Below the pieces are notes generated by a model. That model saw nothing but the letters and a program-made list of their open reading frames with translations. It had not been told where the DNA came from and made no database searches. Below, one piece after another: positions 16,974 through 26,644 of a stretch of DNA of 64,000 bases. Location of the stretch: positions 310,001-374,000 of the forward strand of contig NZ_RRCH01000003.1 in NCBI RefSeq assembly GCF_003862495.1. Reading direction: 5' to 3'. The position numbers were made by a program, and so were the translations under genes. The number at the start of each line of letters is the position of its first letter. The first letter of the stretch is position 1. This stretch comes from Halocatena pleomorpha (GTDB lineage Archaea > Halobacteriota > Halobacteria > Halobacteriales > Haloarculaceae).

Positions 16974-18191
16974 TCAGAGCGAGCCGACGAGCAGTCGGTA
17001 CGCGCCCCGCCGCTGATCCTCCTCGTGATACACCACGGGTTCCTCGACGGCAGCGATCGTCTCGCTGTTGAGCGCGACAGCGGTGGCGATGCCCGTCGTT
17101 TGATGGCTGGTTATCGTGTCCGTTGCCACGTTGAACACGCTCAGCCCGTGGACACCGGGATCGCGCGTCCGGAACTGCTGTGCGCTCGGCACCGCCACCC
17201 TGTCGGCAGCAGTGGCGAGTTCAGTCGCGAAGCCGCCGACGGACGCCGACCACTCGCGGCTCCCGTCGGGTGAGACGCCAATGGCCGTGTGTTCCTCGGG
17301 GTGGAGCACGGTTGTCTCTCGGCCCACTTCGGGATACGTGTTGCCGGTGACGAACACCGCCCCGTCGTGGGTCGCGTGAACGTGATTCGGGTACGCGTAC
17401 ACCGTCTCCCCGTCGATCTCTGTGGGTATGGCGAGAGCCACGCCCCACTCCATGCCGTCGGGACCAATCCGATAGCCACGGTGGTCGGCGTGACTCGTGA
17501 CCACTGCCCCGGTATCGAGTAGCGACACGTCACCTACCCGTCGCTGGCCGTCTGCTGGCGGATCCCATCGGTACCGGATCATACCGTCTTCGGCGTCGAG
17601 CACGACTAGCCCAGAATCGTGCTCGCCGGGGCACCGGTTGTACGCCACAGCGACCCGATCGTCTCGAACAGCGACACTGATGGGCGACGCGTCCGTTTCG
17701 TGGATCCACGCAATCGCACCATCCGCGTCGAACGCGTAGACGGCGCTCGAAAACGATCGTCGTTCATCATCGCGCTCATACCGCCGGACGGCGGCGTACA
17801 CACGAACATCATCGGTGACGAGATCCACGACGAACGGGAGGAAAAACCGTGTTCGCTTTCGTGGCTCGCCCACGTCGGTGGCTGCCGCGTATTGCCAGCG
17901 GACGGTTCCTGTATCGAGATCGTGCGCACGGATAGCACCGGTCGCACTGCGTTCACCAACGACCACGCTGTCCGCGAACGATGCGATCGACACGACTGCC
18001 GCCTCGGCGTCCGATTCGACACGCCAGCGTTCCTCAAGCGTCCACCGGTCGTAGGCGACGACAGTGCCAACAGCAGTTCCGACCACGACGTGATTTCCGG
18101 TCACGGTGACGGCCGAGCGCCGTCCTGTGTGGCGCGACCGCGCGGAGTCGATATCGCTGTCGATATCGACGGTCTGCCACGCGTCACTCAT
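16974..18191 (-). CDS. PQQ/WD40-like beta-propeller protein of the cobalamin operon
   Basis: This 405-residue protein is built of repeating blades with the pattern GTxVAYDxxTLEERWRV, GAIRAHDLDTGTVRWQY, SAVYAFDADGAIAWIHE and VVLDAEDGMIRYRW, like PQQ-type propellers. There is no signal peptide, so a cytoplasmic location is likely. The start MSDAWQTV at 18191 overlaps the DUF3209 stop by 8 bp; the upstream ATG at 18242 would overlap more. It is the last gene of the cbiT operon. Its role is unknown; a scaffold for the membrane or soluble enzymes is one guess. Confidence 0.83.
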   Translation of the reverse strand: MSDAWQTVDIDSDIDSARSRHTGRRSAVTVTGNHVVVGTAVGTVVAYDRWTLEERWRVESDAEAAVVSIASFADSVVVGERSATGAIRAHDLDTGTVRWQYAAATDVGEPRKRTRFFLPFVVDLVTDDVRVYAAVRRYERDDERRSFSSAVYAFDADGAIAWIHETDASPISVAVRDDRVAVAYNRCPGEHDSGLVVLDAEDGMIRYRWDPPADGQRRVGDVSLLDTGAVVTSHADHRGYRIGPDGMEWGVALAIPTEIDGETVYAYPNHVHATHDGAVFVTGNTYPEVGRETTVLHPEEHTAIGVSPDGSREWSASVGGFATELATAADRVAVPSAQQFRTRDPGVHGLSVFNVATDTITSHQTTGIATAVALNSETIAAVEEPVVYHEEDQRRGAYRLLVGSL

Positions 18192-18555
18192 CGACCGGGA
18201 ACGCCTCGTGGAGTAGATCGTGAGCGTCGTCCAGTCCGTCAAGCACGTTCTCTCCGTGGTTGGTCACGCGAGCGACCGCTTGCTCTGCGTCCCGAACAGC
18301 GACCAGCCGTCCCCGGAGATAGCCGTAGGCGGGATCGTCGGTGTCGGTGACGGCGATCTCGGATTCGAGATCAACGAGTGCCGAATCGAGGTGTCGCTCG
18401 ATCTCAGCGAGCGTTTCGGCACGAGCCAGCGCCCCGATAGGGCCGTCCATGCGGCCCTCAAGTTCCCGCTCAGCGTGCTGGCGCGCGCTCTCGTCTTCGG
18501 TTCCGAGAACGTTCATCAATCCGAGTCGTAACGCTTCGAGTTCGTAACAGCTCAT
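18184..18555 (-). CDS. DUF3209 family protein
   Basis: The 123-residue helical protein begins MSCYELEALRLGLMNVLG and matches DUF3209, a small haloarchaeal family found in B12 clusters. It is acidic, with no membrane segment and no clear catalytic motif. A single Cys3 and several histidines (His30, His71, His100, His112, His115) are present. It overlaps cbiX2 by 4 bp upstream and the propeller gene downstream, which argues for a shared function. That function is unknown. Confidence 0.85.
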   Translation of the reverse strand: MSCYELEALRLGLMNVLGTEDESARQHAERELEGRMDGPIGALARAETLAEIERHLDSALVDLESEIAVTDTDDPAYGYLRGRLVAVRDAEQAVARVTNHGENVLDGLDDAHDLLHEAFPVDE

Positions 18556-19781
18556 GATGTCAGTGTTTGATCGACAAGCTCCGAAACGATGCGATCCCGA
18601 TCGAGGTGAGACGAAACGATACGCTCTGCATCCGCTGCGTCGACATCACCGTACCAGACGCCGTCGGGGTAGACGGCCACCATCGGACCGTCCCCACACC
18701 GACCGAGACACGACGAACGGGTGATGCGCGCGTCACACGCCTCTGAATCGCGGGCGTGCTGGCGTAGCCGCTCTAAGACGGCAGGCGCACCGTCAGCGGC
18801 GCACGTCTGATTCGTACAGACGGCGACGTGTTTCTCTGGAGCGTCGTGGGCGTGTGGCTGCTCGTCAACGTCGTCGCGGTCGGCGTGTTCAGCCTGATGA
18901 GTGAGCGCCCGGAGCATCGCTCTTGCACCACCAATGTCCTCGGTATGGCCGTCGAGTTCGACCTTGTACTTACACGTATCACAAGACATCTGGACGCTGT
19001 CGGTGCGCGCCTCCTGCCATCGATCACCAAGCACGTCTAGCAGACGAGAATCAGTGCCCAACGGATCGCCTGCGCCGACGGTGACGTACGGATACGTTTC
19101 GTCAAAATCGGCGGTCCAATCCCGAACGCGCTGTGTGAGGACGCCATCACCGAGCATGTATGGAAGGACGATGACGGCGTCCGGACGGTGTTTCACCGTC
19201 GCATGCAGCGCGTCAGTGAGCTGTGGCTCGGTCACACCGACGAAACAGGTTTCGACCCGGTCGAACGCGCGCCCCTCATACAGGAGGCGCGCCAGCTTCT
19301 TGGCGTCGCCGTTGGCGTCGGGATCGCTGGAGCCGCGAGCACAGAGCACGACCGTGACGGTGTCAGTATCGCGGTCGACACCGAGCGTACTCTCGACAGC
19401 ACTGGCCCGCTCGTCGAGCAGATCGACGATCGCTGGATGGATGCCGAGGTGGCTACCGACGTGGATCGTCACGTCGGAACGCTCGGCGCGGACCTGTTCG
19501 ATCGCCAGCGGCACGTCGGCTTTTACGTGGCTCGCTGCGAACAGGGAGAGTTGGACCACTGTGATCGTTGACACCGCAGACGCTAATCCCGCGATCGCCT
19601 CAGAGATCGCGGGCGCTGCGAGTTCGAGAAACCCCGCGTCGACCGGAATTCCGAGTCGTTGTTCTAACCCCGCAGCGAGAGAGCGAACCTGCTCGTTCGA
19701 TCGCTCTCGGCGCGATCCGTGACCGATCAGCAACACCGCTTCGTCCTCGATCGCGGTCGTCGGTAGGATGGTCTCCGTCAT
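18552..19781 (-). CDS. cbiX2: Sirohydrochlorin cobaltochelatase fused to a ferredoxin domain
   Basis: The first about 265 residues form a two-half CbiX chelatase. The N-terminal half carries the canonical LLIGHGSRRE histidine (near residue 20) and FAASHVKADVP (near 87). The C-terminal half has lost both (LCARGSS and PYMLGDG). A CxxC (MSCDTCKYKVELDGH) and a His-rich linker (HDAPEKH) follow. A thioredoxin-like [2Fe-2S] ferredoxin domain closes the protein, with CTNQTCAADGA and SSCLGRCGDGP. Cobalt insertion early in the anaerobic pathway is the expected reaction, with the Fe-S domain perhaps regulating metal or electron supply. It overlaps its neighbours by 1-4 bp. Confidence 0.92.
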   Translation of the reverse strand: MTETILPTTAIEDEAVLLIGHGSRRERSNEQVRSLAAGLEQRLGIPVDAGFLELAAPAISEAIAGLASAVSTITVVQLSLFAASHVKADVPLAIEQVRAERSDVTIHVGSHLGIHPAIVDLLDERASAVESTLGVDRDTDTVTVVLCARGSSDPDANGDAKKLARLLYEGRAFDRVETCFVGVTEPQLTDALHATVKHRPDAVIVLPYMLGDGVLTQRVRDWTADFDETYPYVTVGAGDPLGTDSRLLDVLGDRWQEARTDSVQMSCDTCKYKVELDGHTEDIGGARAMLRALTHQAEHADRDDVDEQPHAHDAPEKHVAVCTNQTCAADGAPAVLERLRQHARDSEACDARITRSSCLGRCGDGPMVAVYPDGVWYGDVDAADAERIVSSHLDRDRIVSELVDQTLTS

Positions 19782-20488
19782 TATTCTGAGAACGAAAGCG
19801 ATCCGACATCGCCACCTGTCGCGCGTTCGACGCTCCGTCGGAGCTTCCGGCGTCTATCGGCGGCGTACAGCCCCGAGTCATCACTTCCAGCGTACACCCA
19901 TCGCGCAAACGCCGCGGGATCGGCGGTGGCTGCAAGCCCGAACCAGTAGCCACCCGAGGAGCTTTCTGAAAGCCCCTCGGTGGGAATCTCGGGAGCCGCG
20001 TTGCCGAGCAGCGTCCGAAGCGCTTCGAGTAGCTGCTTGTCCTCGTGAACGAACGACACTCCGACCGACGCCGAGGATTCCTGGAAACAGACGGTGCCAC
20101 AGGCTTCGAGCAGTCCCCGCACCAGCTGCTGGCGGTGGTCATCGAAGCCCGTAAACCGACGATTCTCGGGCACGTCGGCTCCGGTCACCACGCCCGCGTC
20201 AGTGGCGCGTTGGGCGAACGACGGTGACACCGGTATCCGGAGTTCGTACACCTCCTCATAGCGAACGACGGTCGCGTCGTGGGCCGATTCGTGGACCGCA
20301 ATCGTGTGCTTGGGGTCCTCACCATTGGCATCGGCTTCGGAGGTCCCAGCCACTGCGTCGAGTGCGGACTTGTCACCGACACGTACAATCACTCGATCAG
20401 TCGTGACCGTGCCGTTGCCGGCGACCCGACCCCAGAAGTACGCCGTCTCCGGCGTTGGATCGAGGAGATCGTCGCCCGTCTCACGCAT
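19781..20488 (-). CDS. LAGLIDADG-like protein with lost catalytic acids, in the cobalamin operon
   Basis: The 235-residue protein shows two diverged LAGLIDADG-type helices. The first is AYFWGRVAGNGTVTTDRV near residues 16-33; the second is QLVRGLLEACGTVCF near 121-135. Each is followed by a beta-rich stretch and helix, and a late WVYAGSDDSGLYAADRRRK resembles the fold's C-terminal element. The position of the catalytic aspartate is Asn in the first repeat and Cys in the second, so nuclease activity is unlikely. It overlaps the ferredoxin gene by 8 bp and touches cbiX2, which makes a B12 role likely. It could be a WhiA-like domesticated endonuclease fold used for binding. Confidence 0.72.
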   Translation of the reverse strand: MRETGDDLLDPTPETAYFWGRVAGNGTVTTDRVIVRVGDKSALDAVAGTSEADANGEDPKHTIAVHESAHDATVVRYEEVYELRIPVSPSFAQRATDAGVVTGADVPENRRFTGFDDHRQQLVRGLLEACGTVCFQESSASVGVSFVHEDKQLLEALRTLLGNAAPEIPTEGLSESSSGGYWFGLAATADPAAFARWVYAGSDDSGLYAADRRRKLRRSVERATGGDVGSLSFSE

Positions 20489-20729
20489 CGTCGATCACCG
20501 TCACGTCGATGGCGTCAACCGGACACGCGCGAGCTGCGAGGCGGGCATCCGCAAGACGGTCGTCGCTGAATCGAGCGATCGTCTCGTCTGCTTGTTCATC
20601 GGATCCGTCAGCTCGTTCGATCGTCACCAGTCCGTCTGGGGCTTCCTCGAACCGGTCATCACGAACGAGACACGCGAAGACACCCACACAGGCGGTCCGA
20701 TCAATCCGGATGTGGTACTCAGTACTCAT
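20481..20729 (-). CDS. Small three-cysteine ferredoxin
   Basis: This 82-residue protein resembles bacterial-type single-cluster ferredoxins. It has Cys14-x5-Cys20 (CVGVFAC) and Cys69-Pro (ACPVDAIDV). Only three cysteines are available, which predicts a [3Fe-4S] cluster or a [4Fe-4S] cluster with an open site. An acidic insert separates the two halves. It overlaps cbiH1 by 11 bp and the LAGLIDADG-like gene by 8 bp. A redox role in the ring-contraction steps is plausible from position, but not shown. Confidence 0.83.
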   Translation of the reverse strand: MSTEYHIRIDRTACVGVFACLVRDDRFEEAPDGLVTIERADGSDEQADETIARFSDDRLADARLAARACPVDAIDVTVIDDA

Positions 20730-21657
20730 ATTTGGATTCGTAGCCTCGGGGCGTCACCATGCGGTCATCCCAGACGTACGTCTCCTCGTTGCCGACGATG
20801 ATGGTCGTCGTCATGTCGATGAGTTCCGTTTCGCCAAGCTCCTCAAGTTCGTCTAGCGCAACGATCTCCGTTCGTTCGTCCTCGCGGCCCGCGCCGTGGA
20901 CGATTCCCACGGGCGTGTCTGGATCGCGGTGTTCAGTGAGAATCTCACAGCACCGCTTGAAATTCTCTCGACGCTTGCGACTCCAGGGGTTGTAGATGGT
21001 GATGGTGAACCCTTCGGCTGCGACGGCGTGAAGCCGTGACTCGATCGTCTCCATCGGTGTCAGGTGATCCGACAACGAGATACTGACGCTGTCGTTCACT
21101 AACGGCGCACCAACGCGTGCCCCACAGGATTGGGCAGCGGGTACGCCCGGCACGACCTCGAAGTCGACCATACTCGCGGTCGCACCTTTCGATTCGAGGA
21201 TCTCTAAGGCCAGCCCTGCGAGCGCGTACACGTTCGGGTCGCCGCTTCCAACGATAGCGACATTGTTGCCCGCGAGCGCGCGATCGACTGCCTCCTCAGT
21301 GCGGGAGACTTCCCCACACATCGGCGTGTCGTACAGCTCCTCGGCCGATTCCGTGATCTCCTCGGGGAGGAGATCGATGTACGTCGTGTACCCGACGATG
21401 TGCTTTGCCTCCAAGAGGCTAGCACGGGCGCGCTGGGTCATTCCCTCTGGCTGACCGGGACCGATCCCCACCGCGAGCAACCGACCGGGATCGGCGTCGA
21501 ATGCCTCGATAGACGCTCCAACCCGCTCATCGGTGGCTTCCCGCTTCGAGTCGTCACACGCCGATCCTGATTTCGACTCCGACTCCGACTCCGATTCCGA
21601 TGTCGAACCGCCATACGTTCGTTGCTCTGTGCTCGTGCTGGTGTTGTCACTACTCAT
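20719..21657 (-). CDS. cbiH1: Cobalt-precorrin-3B C17-methyltransferase
   Basis: CbiH methylates C17 and drives ring contraction. The 312-residue protein has a low-complexity acidic N-terminus with a Ser-Glu repeat. The methylase core then runs LLAVGIGPGQPEGMTQRA (about residues 58-75), VAIVGSGDPNVYAL, FEVVPGVPAAQSCGARVGAPL and ITIYNPWSRKRRENF, ending with IIVGNEETYVWDDRMVTPRGY. It lies directly after the frameshifted paralog (5 bp gap) and is intact, so it could supply the activity alone. Confidence 0.93.
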   Translation of the reverse strand: MSSDNTSTSTEQRTYGGSTSESESESESKSGSACDDSKREATDERVGASIEAFDADPGRLLAVGIGPGQPEGMTQRARASLLEAKHIVGYTTYIDLLPEEITESAEELYDTPMCGEVSRTEEAVDRALAGNNVAIVGSGDPNVYALAGLALEILESKGATASMVDFEVVPGVPAAQSCGARVGAPLVNDSVSISLSDHLTPMETIESRLHAVAAEGFTITIYNPWSRKRRENFKRCCEILTEHRDPDTPVGIVHGAGREDERTEIVALDELEELGETELIDMTTTIIVGNEETYVWDDRMVTPRGYESKYEY

Positions 21658-21662
21658 AATTA

Positions 21663-22531
21663 TTAGAAATCCTCCACATCACGCCCGCCGCGCGGGGTGT
21701 AGAGGTGTGTTCGGTAATCGTTCTCCCAAACCATCGTTTCGTCCGTACCGACGAGGATCGACGTGCCCATGCCTCCGACCTCCTCGTCGTGGTCGGTCGC
21801 CGCTCCAAGCGTCGTAATGGTGTGGGTCTCACCGTTGATATTTCGACCGGCGTCATCACGCCCGGCGTCGTTGAAGATACCAACCGGAACGTGGTCGGCG
21901 CGCTCCTCCTGGATGAGACCGACCGCGCGCTGATAGTTGCGCCAGCAGTTGTACAACACGATGACGAACCCACTGACCGCGCCGCGCGCAGTTTTTCTTC
22001 GATCTCCTCCCATCCCCGCCATTTATCAGACAGAGAAACTGTACAGAAATCGTTACTGAGCGGCGCGCCGAGATTCGCCGCGCCACCGAGTGCGGCCGTC
22101 ACGCCTGGAATCACGGTGATCGGAACGTCGTAGGCGTTCTCTGCTTCGGCCATCAGATAGAGAAGATCGCTTTTCCCGTACACGTTCGGATCGCCGCCCG
22201 ACACGTGAGCGACGGTTTGACCGTTACGCACCCGCTCGAACGCCTCCCGAGCGAGTTCGACCTGCCGACCCATCGAGGAACGGATGATCGTTTGGCGGGT
22301 GCCGTCGGAGCGAGCGACGACCGCCTCCTCGTCCGAACCGGTCGCCGTCTCGTTGGCTGGAAGCGTTCCGTCTGCCCGGAGGAACGCCTGATAAAGGTTC
22401 GACGCGATAACGCAGTCGACGCTCGAAATCACGTCTTGAGCGCGTTGGGTCATCGTGTCGGGAAGTCCGGGACCGATCCCGACGACGTACAGTCGGCCGC
22501 GTTCGCCGTCGGATGGTTCAGCGTCAGTCAC
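21663..22531 (-). pseudogene. cbiH2: Second CbiH-type methyltransferase, interrupted by a frameshift
   Basis: The first part (from 22531) reads YVVGIGPGLPDTMTQRA, VSGGDPNVYGKSDLLYL and ITVIPGVTAALGGAANLGAPL. It continues to EKLRAA and then leaves the family frame. The rest of the methylase (SGFVIVLYNCWRNYQRAV, PVGIFNDAGRDDAG, ILVGTDETMVWENDYRTHLYTPRGG) continues in the -1 frame to a stop at 21663. The shift falls in the GC-rich tract at about 21977-21988 and needs one extra base to restore it. Paired cbiH genes are usual in haloarchaea, so the gene was recently intact. A sequence error, a true mutation or a recoding site are all possible. Confidence 0.85.
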
Positions 22532-22537
22532 GGTGTC

Positions 22538-23509
22538 TCACCGCCCCACCGCGACTGTCACCGCGTCGTCGTAGCGTTCTTTCTCCTGAAGGAGTTCGTG
22601 GTTGCGTCCGCCAGCGATGGCCGACGCCTCTGCGATACCGGGCCAGCCGATGAGTTCGTTCGATCGGGAGGGACTCGGCCCTTCGAACCTTGCGAGCATC
22701 TCCTTCTCGAAGAGCACGATCCCGACATCGATCTTCTGGGCCGCTTCGTACAGCCCCGATTCGTCTTTTTTCCGAGTGCCGGTGGCGACGAACGTCACAT
22801 CATCGAAGCCCAGATCCAGCGCCGATAGCGCGGTCTCCCATGCGGTGAGCACCTGCTCTGTTCGGACGCCCGAAACGGTGCCGGTGCCGAGGACGACGCC
22901 ATCCTTGTTTGGCTTGAGAACCGTTACGTCGTCGTCAACGAAGACGGCACGAGGACCGTCGAGTCGGGCGACTGGTCCGAGTTCGTCGTCGAGCACGGCG
23001 AGATTCGTTGCGACCGTCGAATCGCCGTTGACCACGTGCGCGTCCAAGGCTTTGGCCTTGCTCTCGACGCCTTGCTTGCCAGCGGCTTCGCTCGCGGTCG
23101 TCATCGCAGGCACTGCACCCAACTGCGCGAGATCGGTAACGACCTGATTCGCGCCGTGGTGGCCACCCGTGAGCGGGATCGCCCACGTGAGTTGTTCGTC
23201 GACGACCACGATAGCCGGATCGTCCCACTTGTCCGCGAGCAGCGGCGCGGCTTTGCGCACCGCGATGCCCGACGCCATCAACCCGACGAAACAGTCGTAC
23301 TCCTCCCACTGGTCGGCAAACACGTCGCCGTGGTATTCGATAACGTCAACTCGGTCGTAGGCGTCTTCGATCTCCGCTTTGATCGTGCGGGCGGTGTCGA
23401 GCTTGCGCTCGAAGCTGATGATGGCGATCTCCTCGGCCACCTCGCCGTCAGAATCCGGCGTTGAGCAGTGGCTCGCTCCGTTCGATTCCGTGGTATTGTT
23501 CGTACTCAT
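22538..23509 (-). CDS. cbiG: Cobalamin biosynthesis protein CbiG
   Basis: CbiG opens the delta-lactone of cobalt-precorrin-5A, releasing acetaldehyde. The 323-residue protein has the N-terminal domain with LMASGIAVRKAAPLL and the glycine/histidine motif LTGGHHGANQVV near residue 112. A central domain follows (AVFVDDDVTVLKP), then the C-terminal domain GVVLGTGTVSGV through VTFVATGTRKKDESGLYEAA. A serine/asparagine-rich leader of about 25 residues precedes it. It lies 6 bp upstream of cbiH2 and 30 bp after cbiF in the same operon. Confidence 0.93.
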   Translation of the reverse strand: MSTNNTTESNGASHCSTPDSDGEVAEEIAIISFERKLDTARTIKAEIEDAYDRVDVIEYHGDVFADQWEEYDCFVGLMASGIAVRKAAPLLADKWDDPAIVVVDEQLTWAIPLTGGHHGANQVVTDLAQLGAVPAMTTASEAAGKQGVESKAKALDAHVVNGDSTVATNLAVLDDELGPVARLDGPRAVFVDDDVTVLKPNKDGVVLGTGTVSGVRTEQVLTAWETALSALDLGFDDVTFVATGTRKKDESGLYEAAQKIDVGIVLFEKEMLARFEGPSPSRSNELIGWPGIAEASAIAGGRNHELLQEKERYDDAVTVAVGR

Positions 23510-23539
23510 GTGTCTACAGCGCTCGTTTTCATTTGTGTG

Positions 23540-24397
23540 TCAGTCATTACTCTCTCCGTCTGCAGCGGTGCGGTTCGCCCATTCGCCGTACAGATACGAG
23601 CGTTCGTATCCCGCCTTTCGCGCTGCGTCACCGATGATGACGAGCGCGGAGGCACGGTACCCGGCCGCTTCGATCCGATTACCGATGGTAGCGATGGTTC
23701 CCTCGATGATGTCCTCATCAGGCCAAGACGCGTGATAGACGACCGTAACCGGCGTTTCGGGATCATGCCCTCCCGCAAGAAGCCGGTCCATCGTCTCAGC
23801 GATCGCGTGTGTCCCGAGATAGATGCAGGTCGTCACATCACCCATCCCAACGAACTCATCGATGTGGTCATCTGACGGATCGAGCGTTGTTCCCTGTGGC
23901 CGAGTGAACGCGACGTGATTCGCCACGCCGTTGAGCGTGAGCTGGGTTCGGAGGCTTGCACTGGCAGCAAACGCCGCTGTCACCCCTGGCACAAGATACG
24001 TCGGAACGCCGTCGTGTTCGAGGGCGTCCATCTGTTCGAGCGCCGCCCCGTAGACGGCGGGATCACCGCTGTGAAGCCGAACGACCGACCGGCCAGCCTC
24101 GTAGGCCCCGGCCATCAGCGGCACGAGCTCCTCCAAATCCTTCCCGATGCTCGATACCTGCTCGGCGTCTGCACAGTAGGTAGCGAGGAGTTCGCTGTTG
24201 ACCAACGATCCCGCGTGTACCACGAGATCGGCGGCTTCGACCAGCTCTTTTCCCGTGACCGTGAGCAGTCCTGGATCACCCGGTCCGGCTCCGACGAACG
24301 GAATGCCCTCCTGACGCTCGCCAGCGGTCCGTTCGTGGATACGAGGATCGCGCTCGGCCGCAGTGGCCGCATCGATGGCCGTTTGGGGATCACTCAT
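23540..24397 (-). CDS. cbiF: Cobalt-precorrin-4 C11-methyltransferase
   Basis: The 285-residue tetrapyrrole methylase adds the C11 methyl group. Key segments are FVGAGPGDPGLLTVTGKELV (about residues 34-53), VRLHSGDPAVYGAALEQMD and YLVPGVTAAFAASASL. AFTRPQGTTLDP and TCIYLGTHAIAETM follow. The start MSDPQTAID at 24397 overlaps cbiL by 8 bp; the longer open frame upstream to 24682 lies antisense-like within cbiL and is rejected. An N-terminal extension of about 30 residues is present. Confidence 0.95.
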   Translation of the reverse strand: MSDPQTAIDAATAAERDPRIHERTAGERQEGIPFVGAGPGDPGLLTVTGKELVEAADLVVHAGSLVNSELLATYCADAEQVSSIGKDLEELVPLMAGAYEAGRSVVRLHSGDPAVYGAALEQMDALEHDGVPTYLVPGVTAAFAASASLRTQLTLNGVANHVAFTRPQGTTLDPSDDHIDEFVGMGDVTTCIYLGTHAIAETMDRLLAGGHDPETPVTVVYHASWPDEDIIEGTIATIGNRIEAAGYRASALVIIGDAARKAGYERSYLYGEWANRTAADGESND

Positions 24398-25118
24398 TGT
24401 GACTCCGTTCCGCGAGATCAGTGCCGTGCGTGTCAGCTCCCTCGAACGCCGCAGTTGGTGATTCATCGTCAATTCCGCGTTTTTCGGCGTACGCGAGCGT
24501 GTAGTAATCCCGACCATCGACGGCGTGGGGATCGTCAGTGACGACGGTATCCCCCGATTCCATGAACAGCCGGCGGCCGTACACCACGTCGTAGCCGCTC
24601 TCGATGAGTCCTTCGTGAGTCGACGGTGCGTCGGTGACTTTGAACAGAACCATCCGGTCGGGACCACTCGGAGCAACACCACCAGCGGCCTCCCGCAACG
24701 CGAGGCTCGAACCAGCTGTGATCTCGATCCCGAGTGCTGTCGTAAACGCCGTGACGGCGCTCACACCGGGGACGATCTCGATCTCGACCGAATGAAACGC
24801 GTCAAGCGTCCGCCGGAGATGGCCGAACGTCGAATACACGTTGGGATCACCAAGCGTCACGAACGCCACAGAGTCCTCGCGTGCACGCGGGGCGATCTCT
24901 GCAGCGGCTTTCTTCCACGCCGTTCGGAGTTCGTCCTCGTCGCGGGTCATCGGGAATGAAAGGCCCGAAATCCGCGCGTCAGGCACGTGTTCGGCGGCGA
25001 CCGATCGGGAAAGCCGACCGGGCGTGTACACCACGTCGGCTCGTTGGAGTATCTGCTTACCGCGTACAGTCACGAGATCCGCACGGCCCGGACCCAATCC
25101 GACGCCGTACAGCGTCAT
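24390..25118 (-). CDS. cbiL: Cobalt-factor II C20-methyltransferase
   Basis: CbiL adds the C20 methyl group early in the anaerobic branch. The 242-residue protein starts directly with MTLYGVGLGPGRADLVTVRG, the SAM-binding motif. It continues with FVTLGDPNVYSTFGHL, EIVPGVSAVTAFTTALG and a C-terminal CbiL-like VVYGRRLFMESGDTVV segment. It overlaps cbiT by 4 bp and cbiF by 8 bp, consistent with tight translational coupling. Confidence 0.94.
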   Translation of the reverse strand: MTLYGVGLGPGRADLVTVRGKQILQRADVVYTPGRLSRSVAAEHVPDARISGLSFPMTRDEDELRTAWKKAAAEIAPRAREDSVAFVTLGDPNVYSTFGHLRRTLDAFHSVEIEIVPGVSAVTAFTTALGIEITAGSSLALREAAGGVAPSGPDRMVLFKVTDAPSTHEGLIESGYDVVYGRRLFMESGDTVVTDDPHAVDGRDYYTLAYAEKRGIDDESPTAAFEGADTHGTDLAERSHNE

Positions 25119-25681
25119 CTGCCACCTCTGGCGTCCGATTCGTCGGTCTCGCCAACCACCATGTACACCGGATTGTCTGAGTCGAAACTCGTCGCGCCGG
25201 CCAGCTCGTAGCCGTGGCTCACCTGAATCTGGATGACCTCCTCAAGTACTCCCCGCTCGCGGAACGCTTGAACAGCCTCACCCGCGACTTCAAGACGGGA
25301 GACGTTCATTATGATCCGGTCGATTCCCGTTTCGACCGCGTGATCGAGCACCGCCTCGTAGTTGCGGCTGCCGCCGATGAACAACGCGTCACCGTCTTCC
25401 GGCAATCCTGCCGGTGCGTGTGCTTCTCGAAGTGTGACATCACCACTCACGTCGTTTGCGGCCAGGTTCTTCCGCGTCACCGCTATCCGGTCGGGCTTGC
25501 GTTCGAGCGCGGTAACCCGGTCAGCACGACGTGCTGCTTCGATGGTAACGGCACCAGTACACGAACCGACTTCGACAACATGGTCGGCCGCCGTGAGATC
25601 GAGTTTGTGTAACAGCACAGCCCGAACCTCCGCCTTGGTCGGCCCTGCCTTTGCGTCGTATGGGAGCGATACGCGCGACAT
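25115..25681 (-). CDS. cbiT: Cobalt-precorrin-6B C15-methyltransferase (decarboxylating)
   Basis: CbiT methylates C15 and decarboxylates the acetate side chain at C12. The 188-residue Rossmann-type methyltransferase shows the start LPYDAKAGPTKAEVRAVLL and motif I VVEVGSCTGAVTIEAA (about residues 36-51). ALERKPDRI and ALFIGGSRNYEAVLDHAV follow. It is the first gene of the long minus-strand cbi operon, so the regulatory region to its right controls at least ten downstream genes. Confidence 0.94.
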   Translation of the reverse strand: MSRVSLPYDAKAGPTKAEVRAVLLHKLDLTAADHVVEVGSCTGAVTIEAARRADRVTALERKPDRIAVTRKNLAANDVSGDVTLREAHAPAGLPEDGDALFIGGSRNYEAVLDHAVETGIDRIIMNVSRLEVAGEAVQAFRERGVLEEVIQIQVSHGYELAGATSFDSDNPVYMVVGETDESDARGGR

Positions 25682-25828: not shown

Positions 25829-26644
25829 ATGCCGAAGGACGTTGTGGGGACGGATGACTCCGGTGTGCTCCGAAGCAAACGGAACGCCACCCGATATCAG
25901 ATCCTAGTACAGGTCGCAGAGCACCAGCCGGCAGTGAGTCAACAGGAGATTGCGGACGCGATCGGGATTACGGCGCAGGCAGTGAGCGATTATCTCCGGG
26001 ATCTCATCGAACAGGACTACGTCGACAAACAGGGGCGTGGTCGGTACGAAATCACCAAAGAAGGTGTCGACTGGCTCATCACGCAGACCGACGAGCTACG
26101 CGGATTCGTCCAGCACGTCTCGGAGGACGTTATCGGACAGGTCGACATCGAAACTGCGCTTGCGAGGACGGAGATCAGCGAGGGTGAGACCGTGACGCTC
26201 ACGATGCAGGACGGCGTGCTGCGGGCGATGTCGGGGGATATTGGCGGCGCAACTGCGGTTGCAGTAACGGACGCCGACCCGGAACAGGACGTTGGTGTCA
26301 CTAACTTCGAGGGCGTCCTCGATTACGATCTCGGAACGGTGACGATCGTAGCGGTGCCGACGGTGCAAAACGGTGGGAGCACGGCGGTTGATCCGGACGC
26401 GATCCAGTCGGTCAGAGACGATCACGATCTCGTCGCCGTTGCAGGTACTGAAGCACTCGCCGCGGTGCGTCACCTCGGTGTCGATCCCGATATCCGGTTC
26501 GGAACTGAAGCTGCCGTCGAAGAGGCAGCAACGAAAGGCCAGTCCGTGCTGTTGGTGGCCACGACCGACGAACTGTCGACACACACCGATCGGCTCCGGG
26601 AAGGCAACATCGGTTATGAAGTCGTCGACGCGACCGACGAGTGA
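25829..26644 (+). CDS. Winged-helix transcriptional regulator (MarR/DUF7839-like), candidate cobalamin regulator
   Basis: The 271-residue protein has an N-terminal winged helix-turn-helix (ILVQVAEHQPAVSQQEIAD and AQAVSDYLRDLIEQDYV, about residues 27-73). A long alpha/beta effector-like domain follows, with ISEGETVTLTMQDGVL near 115 and the AVAGTEALAAVRHLGVDPDIRF segment near 195. The C-terminal half looks like a small-molecule or ligand domain, but the ligand is unknown. It is divergent from the cbiT operon across 147 bp that holds repeated dyads. A role as local regulator is therefore an inference from position. Confidence 0.8.
   Translation: MPKDVVGTDDSGVLRSKRNATRYQILVQVAEHQPAVSQQEIADAIGITAQAVSDYLRDLIEQDYVDKQGRGRYEITKEGVDWLITQTDELRGFVQHVSEDVIGQVDIETALARTEISEGETVTLTMQDGVLRAMSGDIGGATAVAVTDADPEQDVGVTNFEGVLDYDLGTVTIVAVPTVQNGGSTAVDPDAIQSVRDDHDLVAVAGTEALAAVRHLGVDPDIRFGTEAAVEEAATKGQSVLLVATTDELSTHTDRLREGNIGYEVVDATDE

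Follow-up and report, generated by a model that had tools for sequence, protein, structure and literature searches.

A degenerate LAGLIDADG-fold protein, probably recruited to a job in B12 synthesis, has a fixed place in the cobalt-early corrin operon of aerobic haloarchaea

Why does a homing-endonuclease fold occur inside an operon for B12 synthesis? The question is raised by a 64,000-nucleotide stretch of the genome of Halocatena pleomorpha (contig NZ_RRCH01000003.1, positions 310,001-374,000 of the forward strand), hereafter the window, from whose start all positions are counted. It holds a run of corrin genes (Table 1), one of which an earlier note on this DNA had read as encoding a domesticated LAGLIDADG fold with lost catalytic acids. 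Relatives of this gene bear the PGAP name 'cobalamin biosynthesis protein'. In Haloferax volcanii it is equated with HVO_B0055 by its position, with cbiX on one side and on the other the ferredoxin that follows cbiH2, and not by the sequence of that protein; relatives from Haloferax (L081, L095, L098 and L106) are family members. HVO_B0055 has been described as a cobalamin-cluster protein with 'function unassigned', in a paper that makes no mention of LAGLIDADG (PMC8305020).

Table 1. Features of the corrin operon in the window (window positions; ORF, open reading frame).
Feature	Position	Strand	Remarks
PQQ-type beta-propeller protein, after DUF3209	16974..18242	-	True start probably downstream of 18242
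DUF3209 protein, relative of Thermus TTHB059 (PDB 2ehw)	18184..18555	-	Domain match
cbiX: two CbiX repeats with MSCDTC motif and C-terminal thioredoxin-like [2Fe-2S] domain	18552..19781	-	Domain match; recurs in synteny comparison
Two-repeat degenerate LAGLIDADG-fold protein gene	19781..20488	-	235 aa, ATG start; ORF, fold models, family members
Second LAGLIDADG helix end, GLLEACG, residues 125-131	20096..20116	-	Cys130 at catalytic-acid position, Cys134 at +4; modelled helix 113-130
First LAGLIDADG helix end, GRVAGNG, residues 20-26	20411..20431	-	Asn25 at catalytic-acid position; modelled helix 13-25
Small ferredoxin, Fer4_15	20481..20729	-	Domain match; recurs in synteny comparison
cbiH2, precorrin-3B C17-methyltransferase family	20719..21657	-	TIGR01466, 6.8e-93
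Remaining corrin operon: cbiH1 (frameshifted in window), cbiG, cbiF, cbiL, cbiT	21650..25681	-	Order as annotated in Haladaptatus

Read from the operon end, the order is beta-propeller, DUF3209, cbiX, the LAGLIDADG-fold gene, ferredoxin, cbiH2, cbiH1, cbiG, cbiF, cbiL and cbiT. The start of the LAGLIDADG-fold gene overlaps the ferredoxin ORF by 8 nt, and its stop shares 1 nt with the ATG of cbiX at 19781. Relatives of the beta-propeller protein occur in 68 of the loci fetched. An apparent frameshift near 21.96 kb interrupts cbiH1 (21650-22531, minus strand), whose second half is read in a different frame (ORF 21663-22022); either a sequencing error or damage may be the cause. Beside cbiT lies a divergent gene for a winged-helix regulator with DUF7839 (25829-26644, plus strand), and a copy 72% identical to it is found at the equivalent place in Haladaptatus (L146, 3522-4322).

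The fold was read from predicted structures. An AlphaFold2 model of the window protein, built on 59 sequences of its own family, was confident (pLDDT 90.2, pTM 0.89), as was a second AlphaFold model, of a Haloferax relative (pLDDT 93.3, pTM 0.90). The modelled topology is alpha-beta-beta-alpha-beta-beta-alpha in two copies, with GRVAGNG and GLLEACG closing the helices given in Table 1. Foldseek searches of the PDB gave 42 matches at E≤1e-3 for the window model and 47 for the Haloferax model, every one of them a LAGLIDADG protein; they include I-Tsp061I (E = 3.9e-8 against the Haloferax-relative model), I-DmoI, the bI3 maturase (rank 4), I-SceI, PI-SceI, I-WcaI and WhiA, the last being among the best (8dy9_I, query-normalised TM-score 0.60; 3hyi, E = 1.1e-6). 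TM-scores of the PDB matches were moderate (query-normalised 0.39-0.60), as expected of distant relatives. Because the two motifs end the correct helices of both repeats and the structure search gives LAGLIDADG proteins only, they are not chance matches.

At the sequence level, a Pfam and NCBIfam scan of the window protein alone, CbiD and CbiJ included, found no match, a sequence-profile search of the PDB yielded chance matches only, and the N-terminal and C-terminal halves of the family profile were not significantly similar to each other (E = 0.15). In agreement with the structures, PF14528 (LAGLIDADG_3) matched 29 of the 59 relatives at a permissive E≤10 (best 3.6e-5), the window protein itself being unmatched, and the WhiA Pfam models matched none of the 59. 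The window protein has no helix-turn-helix (HTH) domain, and its model stops after the second repeat. Against 243 genomes, the family profile found a single match outside the family (E = 0.0045), which hhalign aligned to the family with E = 7.6e-4. This match is the LAGLIDADG homing domain of an intein carried by the GyrB of G113 (L155, 1809-4829, minus strand).

Among 98 distinct relatives, the first catalytic-acid position (P1, residue 25) is Asp in 60, Ser in 16, Gly in 12, Asn in 9 and Glu in 1, whereas the second (P2, residue 130) is Cys in 97 and Ala in one (L086). The family trait is Cys130, not Asn25, and loss of the N-terminal acid is not family-wide. Cys134 (98/98), His70, Arg124, Glu128, Ser145, Phe183, Tyr199, Arg212 and Lys215 are invariant, Trp182 is conserved, and K/R136 and R76 are conserved basic residues on or near the sheet. 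Selection is purifying, with dN/dS of about 0.07-0.29 in eight pairs (dN 0.11 and dS 0.38 for the window gene and its nearest relative, lower ratios in the seven other pairs). A normal homing nuclease is ruled out for the family since nearly every relative (97 of 98) has Cys in place of the second acid, and this Cys together with the purifying selection marks the family as a fixed, non-nuclease protein, cleavage being judged from sequence. Nor does the gene have the mobility of a homing endonuclease, being a free-standing ORF in fixed synteny with no intron or intein. Given their conservation, Cys130, Cys134 and His70 may bind metal.

The two helix repeats and the overlaps with both neighbours that the earlier note had described are thus real, and the predicted structure, which it had set in advance as one test of its reading, is a LAGLIDADG fold with I-DmoI and WhiA among the matches. 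Its terms 'domesticated' and 'lost catalytic acids' are both supported, although across the family only the Cys at the second position is fixed and most relatives keep Asp at the first.

We then considered how closely the gene follows the corrin pathway, with cbiH (cbiH2 family) as pathway marker. In a draw of 393 genomes of the phylum, relatives occurred in 40, all from the order of the window, so that the family is confined to Halobacteria within the genomes searched. Within that order, the family profile lists 123 of 243 genomes, or 122 with the gene once the GyrB intein is set aside, and cbiH was found in 127. The distribution, which was the second test named in the earlier note, tracks cobalamin genes: 122 genomes have both, five cbiH alone (G043, G045, G113, G573 and G335), none the gene alone and 116 neither, that is, presence in 122/127 genomes with cbiH against 0/116 without, in tests that ignore kinship. 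Counted by genus, the figures are 42, 3, 0 and 27, respectively. The gene is patchy inside genera, where its gains and losses coincide with those of cbiH. Synteny with cbiH2 and cbiX holds in 24 of 26 loci in one set and in nearly all of 80 in another, and where both flanks are complete, the gene almost always has ferredoxin-cbiH2 on one side and cbiX-DUF3209 on the other. Its place in the cobalt-early corrin operon of aerobic haloarchaea is fixed, and we are very confident of the joint claim that its product has a LAGLIDADG fold and belongs to the cobalt-early corrin pathway. A dead homing-enzyme fold has probably been recruited to a job in B12 synthesis. A search for fusions to cbiX or ferredoxin gave no convincing case, the apparent one in L149 being a frameshift.

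The genomes that depart from this pattern are instructive. In G043, G045, G113 and G573 the cluster is cbiT-L-F-G-H1-H2-X only; a His-rich tail replaces the [2Fe-2S] domain of CbiX, the neighbouring ferredoxin and DUF3209 are missing, and DUF3209 is missing genome-wide save for a sub-threshold match in G573. Three of these four lack haem-copper oxidase subunit I (COX1) and are the sole COX1-less genomes among the 127 with cbiH (Fisher 3e-5, kinship ignored); with G045 and G113 in the same genus, they count as about two lineages that lack the oxidase independently. G573 is without the gene despite having oxidases. The fifth genome, G335, keeps the ferredoxin, CbiX-[2Fe-2S] and DUF3209, and a second, His-tailed CbiX occupies the slot of the gene. 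This hinted that a His-tailed CbiX is a strict substitute for the gene, which G021 contradicts, since it has both the gene and a His-tailed CbiX, with no DUF3209 in the vicinity. In G044 the gene stands apart from the cluster, flanked by two cation-efflux transporters and a rhodanese, with cbiX-DUF3209 and the cbi operon on other contigs. From these exceptions it follows that the gene goes with the form of the cluster that carries the ferredoxin, in aerobic haloarchaea, and is retained when the operon is broken.

Haloarchaeal CbiX is of two kinds (L137-L141, L156), with a thioredoxin-like [2Fe-2S] domain or a His-rich tail, and G335 has both; for His-rich CbiX tails, storage or delivery of cobalt has been proposed (PMC7689651). 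In Leptospira interrogans and Thermus thermophilus, whose cobalt-early clusters include CbiD, DUF3209 lies directly 3' of CbiX (L144, 9001-9372; L145, 11472-11834). CbiH2 and ferredoxin share a single open frame in G490 (L148, 1501-2788), a possible natural fusion on a contig with frameshifts elsewhere, which suggests that the ferredoxin serves CbiH2. In G044, a dCTP deaminase-like ORF with a LAGLIDADG intein (L143, 13362-15443, plus strand) is only a few kb away from the gene that stands apart from the cluster.

What the protein does in this setting can be proposed only tentatively. Its most likely role, we infer, is that of a non-catalytic, metal-handling accessory of the CbiX/CbiH2 cobalt-insertion module. 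A LAGLIDADG-fold protein that has stopped acting on a mobile target site would have become the partner of a module for cobalt insertion and ring contraction (ferredoxin, CbiH2, CbiX-[2Fe-2S] and DUF3209), translational coupling would keep its synthesis in step with that of both neighbours, and the former active-site, DNA-facing saddle with Cys130, Cys134 and Lys/Arg136 would serve to bind cobalt, a cobalt-tetrapyrrole or another protein of the module. The outcome would be an oxygen-independent pathway able to run in oxygen-respiring cells. We favour this role because the gene is translationally coupled to cbiX and ferredoxin, because it is absent jointly with other accessory parts, because a second cobaltochelatase takes its slot in G335 and because metal transporters adjoin it where it is unlinked. 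In the LAGLIDADG topology, as in I-CreI, the residue four positions beyond the catalytic one points into the groove, and the two near-invariant cysteines, which would both lie on the predicted former active-site face, are a further reason. Against it, the co-occurrence of gene and His-tailed CbiX in G021 means that the tail is no simple replacement, G335 manages without the gene, Ala130 in L086 indicates that Cys130 is not strictly required, and the oxygen link rests on the few lineages described above, with G573 as an exception. That the fold has left nucleic acids wholly, its nuclease site now being a Cys-based site for cobalt, Fe-S or a tetrapyrrole in aid of cobalt-early B12 synthesis in oxygen-respiring archaea, is a stronger version that we consider rather unlikely.

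To our knowledge, all functions known for the LAGLIDADG fold are exerted on nucleic acids, which speaks against an accessory role and for the main rival, a WhiA-like domesticated regulator of the B12 operon that binds DNA or senses redox state, does not cleave, and might have the neighbouring Fe-S protein as a partner. This alternative, a serious one even if we incline to doubt it, agrees with the place of WhiA among the best structural matches, with the Asp kept at P1 in 60 of the 98 relatives and with the basic residues K/R136 and R76; moreover, WhiA co-controls its regulon with the [4Fe-4S] protein WhiB (PMC4850268), and here a ferredoxin adjoins the gene. However, the DNA-binding HTH of WhiA lies outside its LAGLIDADG domain (PMC3781837) and is absent here, a lack that fits an accessory better. 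Of the four sheet regions, three carry a net negative charge (about -10 to -20 per 100 aa), which likewise favours the accessory role, although whole haloarchaeal intein domains are mildly acidic too. The gene is also in mid-operon and translationally coupled, and a separate divergent winged-helix regulator stands before cbiT in both the window and the Haladaptatus cluster. The same mostly acidic sheets weigh against a maturase-like RNA-binding factor for the operon mRNA, which the bI3 maturase among the top structural matches might suggest and which we regard as very improbable.

The protein could instead be an enzyme or essential subunit that fills a gap in the haloarchaeal corrin pathway, at C1 methylation (CbiD) or precorrin-6 reduction (CbiJ), a reading to which we give little credence. 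CbiD and CbiJ profiles are missing from all 18 genomes considered, with and without the gene, and unassigned cluster genes have been named as candidates for such gaps (PMC8305020). Nevertheless, the five gene-less genomes with cbiH have the same gaps, which in those genomes at least must be closed by something else, so the gene is probably not simply CbiD or CbiJ, and the fold is not one that binds SAM or a nucleotide cofactor; nor do we know of any LAGLIDADG protein that acts as a methyltransferase or reductase. Least credible of all is a decaying selfish homing endonuclease carried as a passive passenger of the operon: the origin of the fold would suit it, but purifying selection, a position fixed across the order, the conservation of C134, H70 and W182 and the presence and absence shared with cbiH all argue otherwise. 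Phage or viral relatives of the family were searched for and none was found, a viral candidate (L157) proving to be a 20-residue chance match inside an unrelated ORF.

The joint loss of the gene with [2Fe-2S] CbiX, DUF3209 and ferredoxin in haloarchaea that lack the oxidase suggests a module that lets the oxygen-independent B12 route operate in air. Cleavage-dead domesticated LAGLIDADG proteins are rare as far as we know, WhiA being the prokaryotic example known to us, and a second case, fixed in a B12 operon and free of the DNA-binding domain of WhiA, would show reuse of the fold in a new setting. Genetics is routine in Haloferax, a member of the group. The fold also gives a structural handle on one of four unassigned haloarchaeal cobalamin-cluster genes (PMC8305020). 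In the literature searched, outside which most subscription journals lie, no paper joins LAGLIDADG with haloarchaeal cobalamin genes; what is new here is a cleavage-dead LAGLIDADG protein, of a known sort, in a new setting, the B12 operon.

Among known systems, WhiA of Gram-positive bacteria (DUF199/COG1481) is likewise a two-repeat, degenerate LAGLIDADG protein that has lost its acids, is inherited vertically and is not a nuclease. In contrast to WhiA with its C-terminal DNA-binding HTH (PMC3781837), the haloarchaeal protein is a bare domain; it is archaeal, lies within a B12 operon and has a near-invariant Cys at the second acid position. With the monomeric homing endonucleases I-DmoI and I-Tsp061I and the archaeal inteins (PF14528) it shares the topology, the P1 and P2 helices and, in its relatives, PF14528 scores, whereas it differs from them in lacking the second acid, in lying outside any intron or intein and in its fixed operon position. 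Finally, Bacillus megaterium CbiXL, with its His-rich and [4Fe-4S] tail, resembles the proposed role in having accessory parts at an early cobaltochelatase, with metal delivery as their proposed function (PMC7689651); its fold is unrelated, and the haloarchaeal counterpart is a separate protein.
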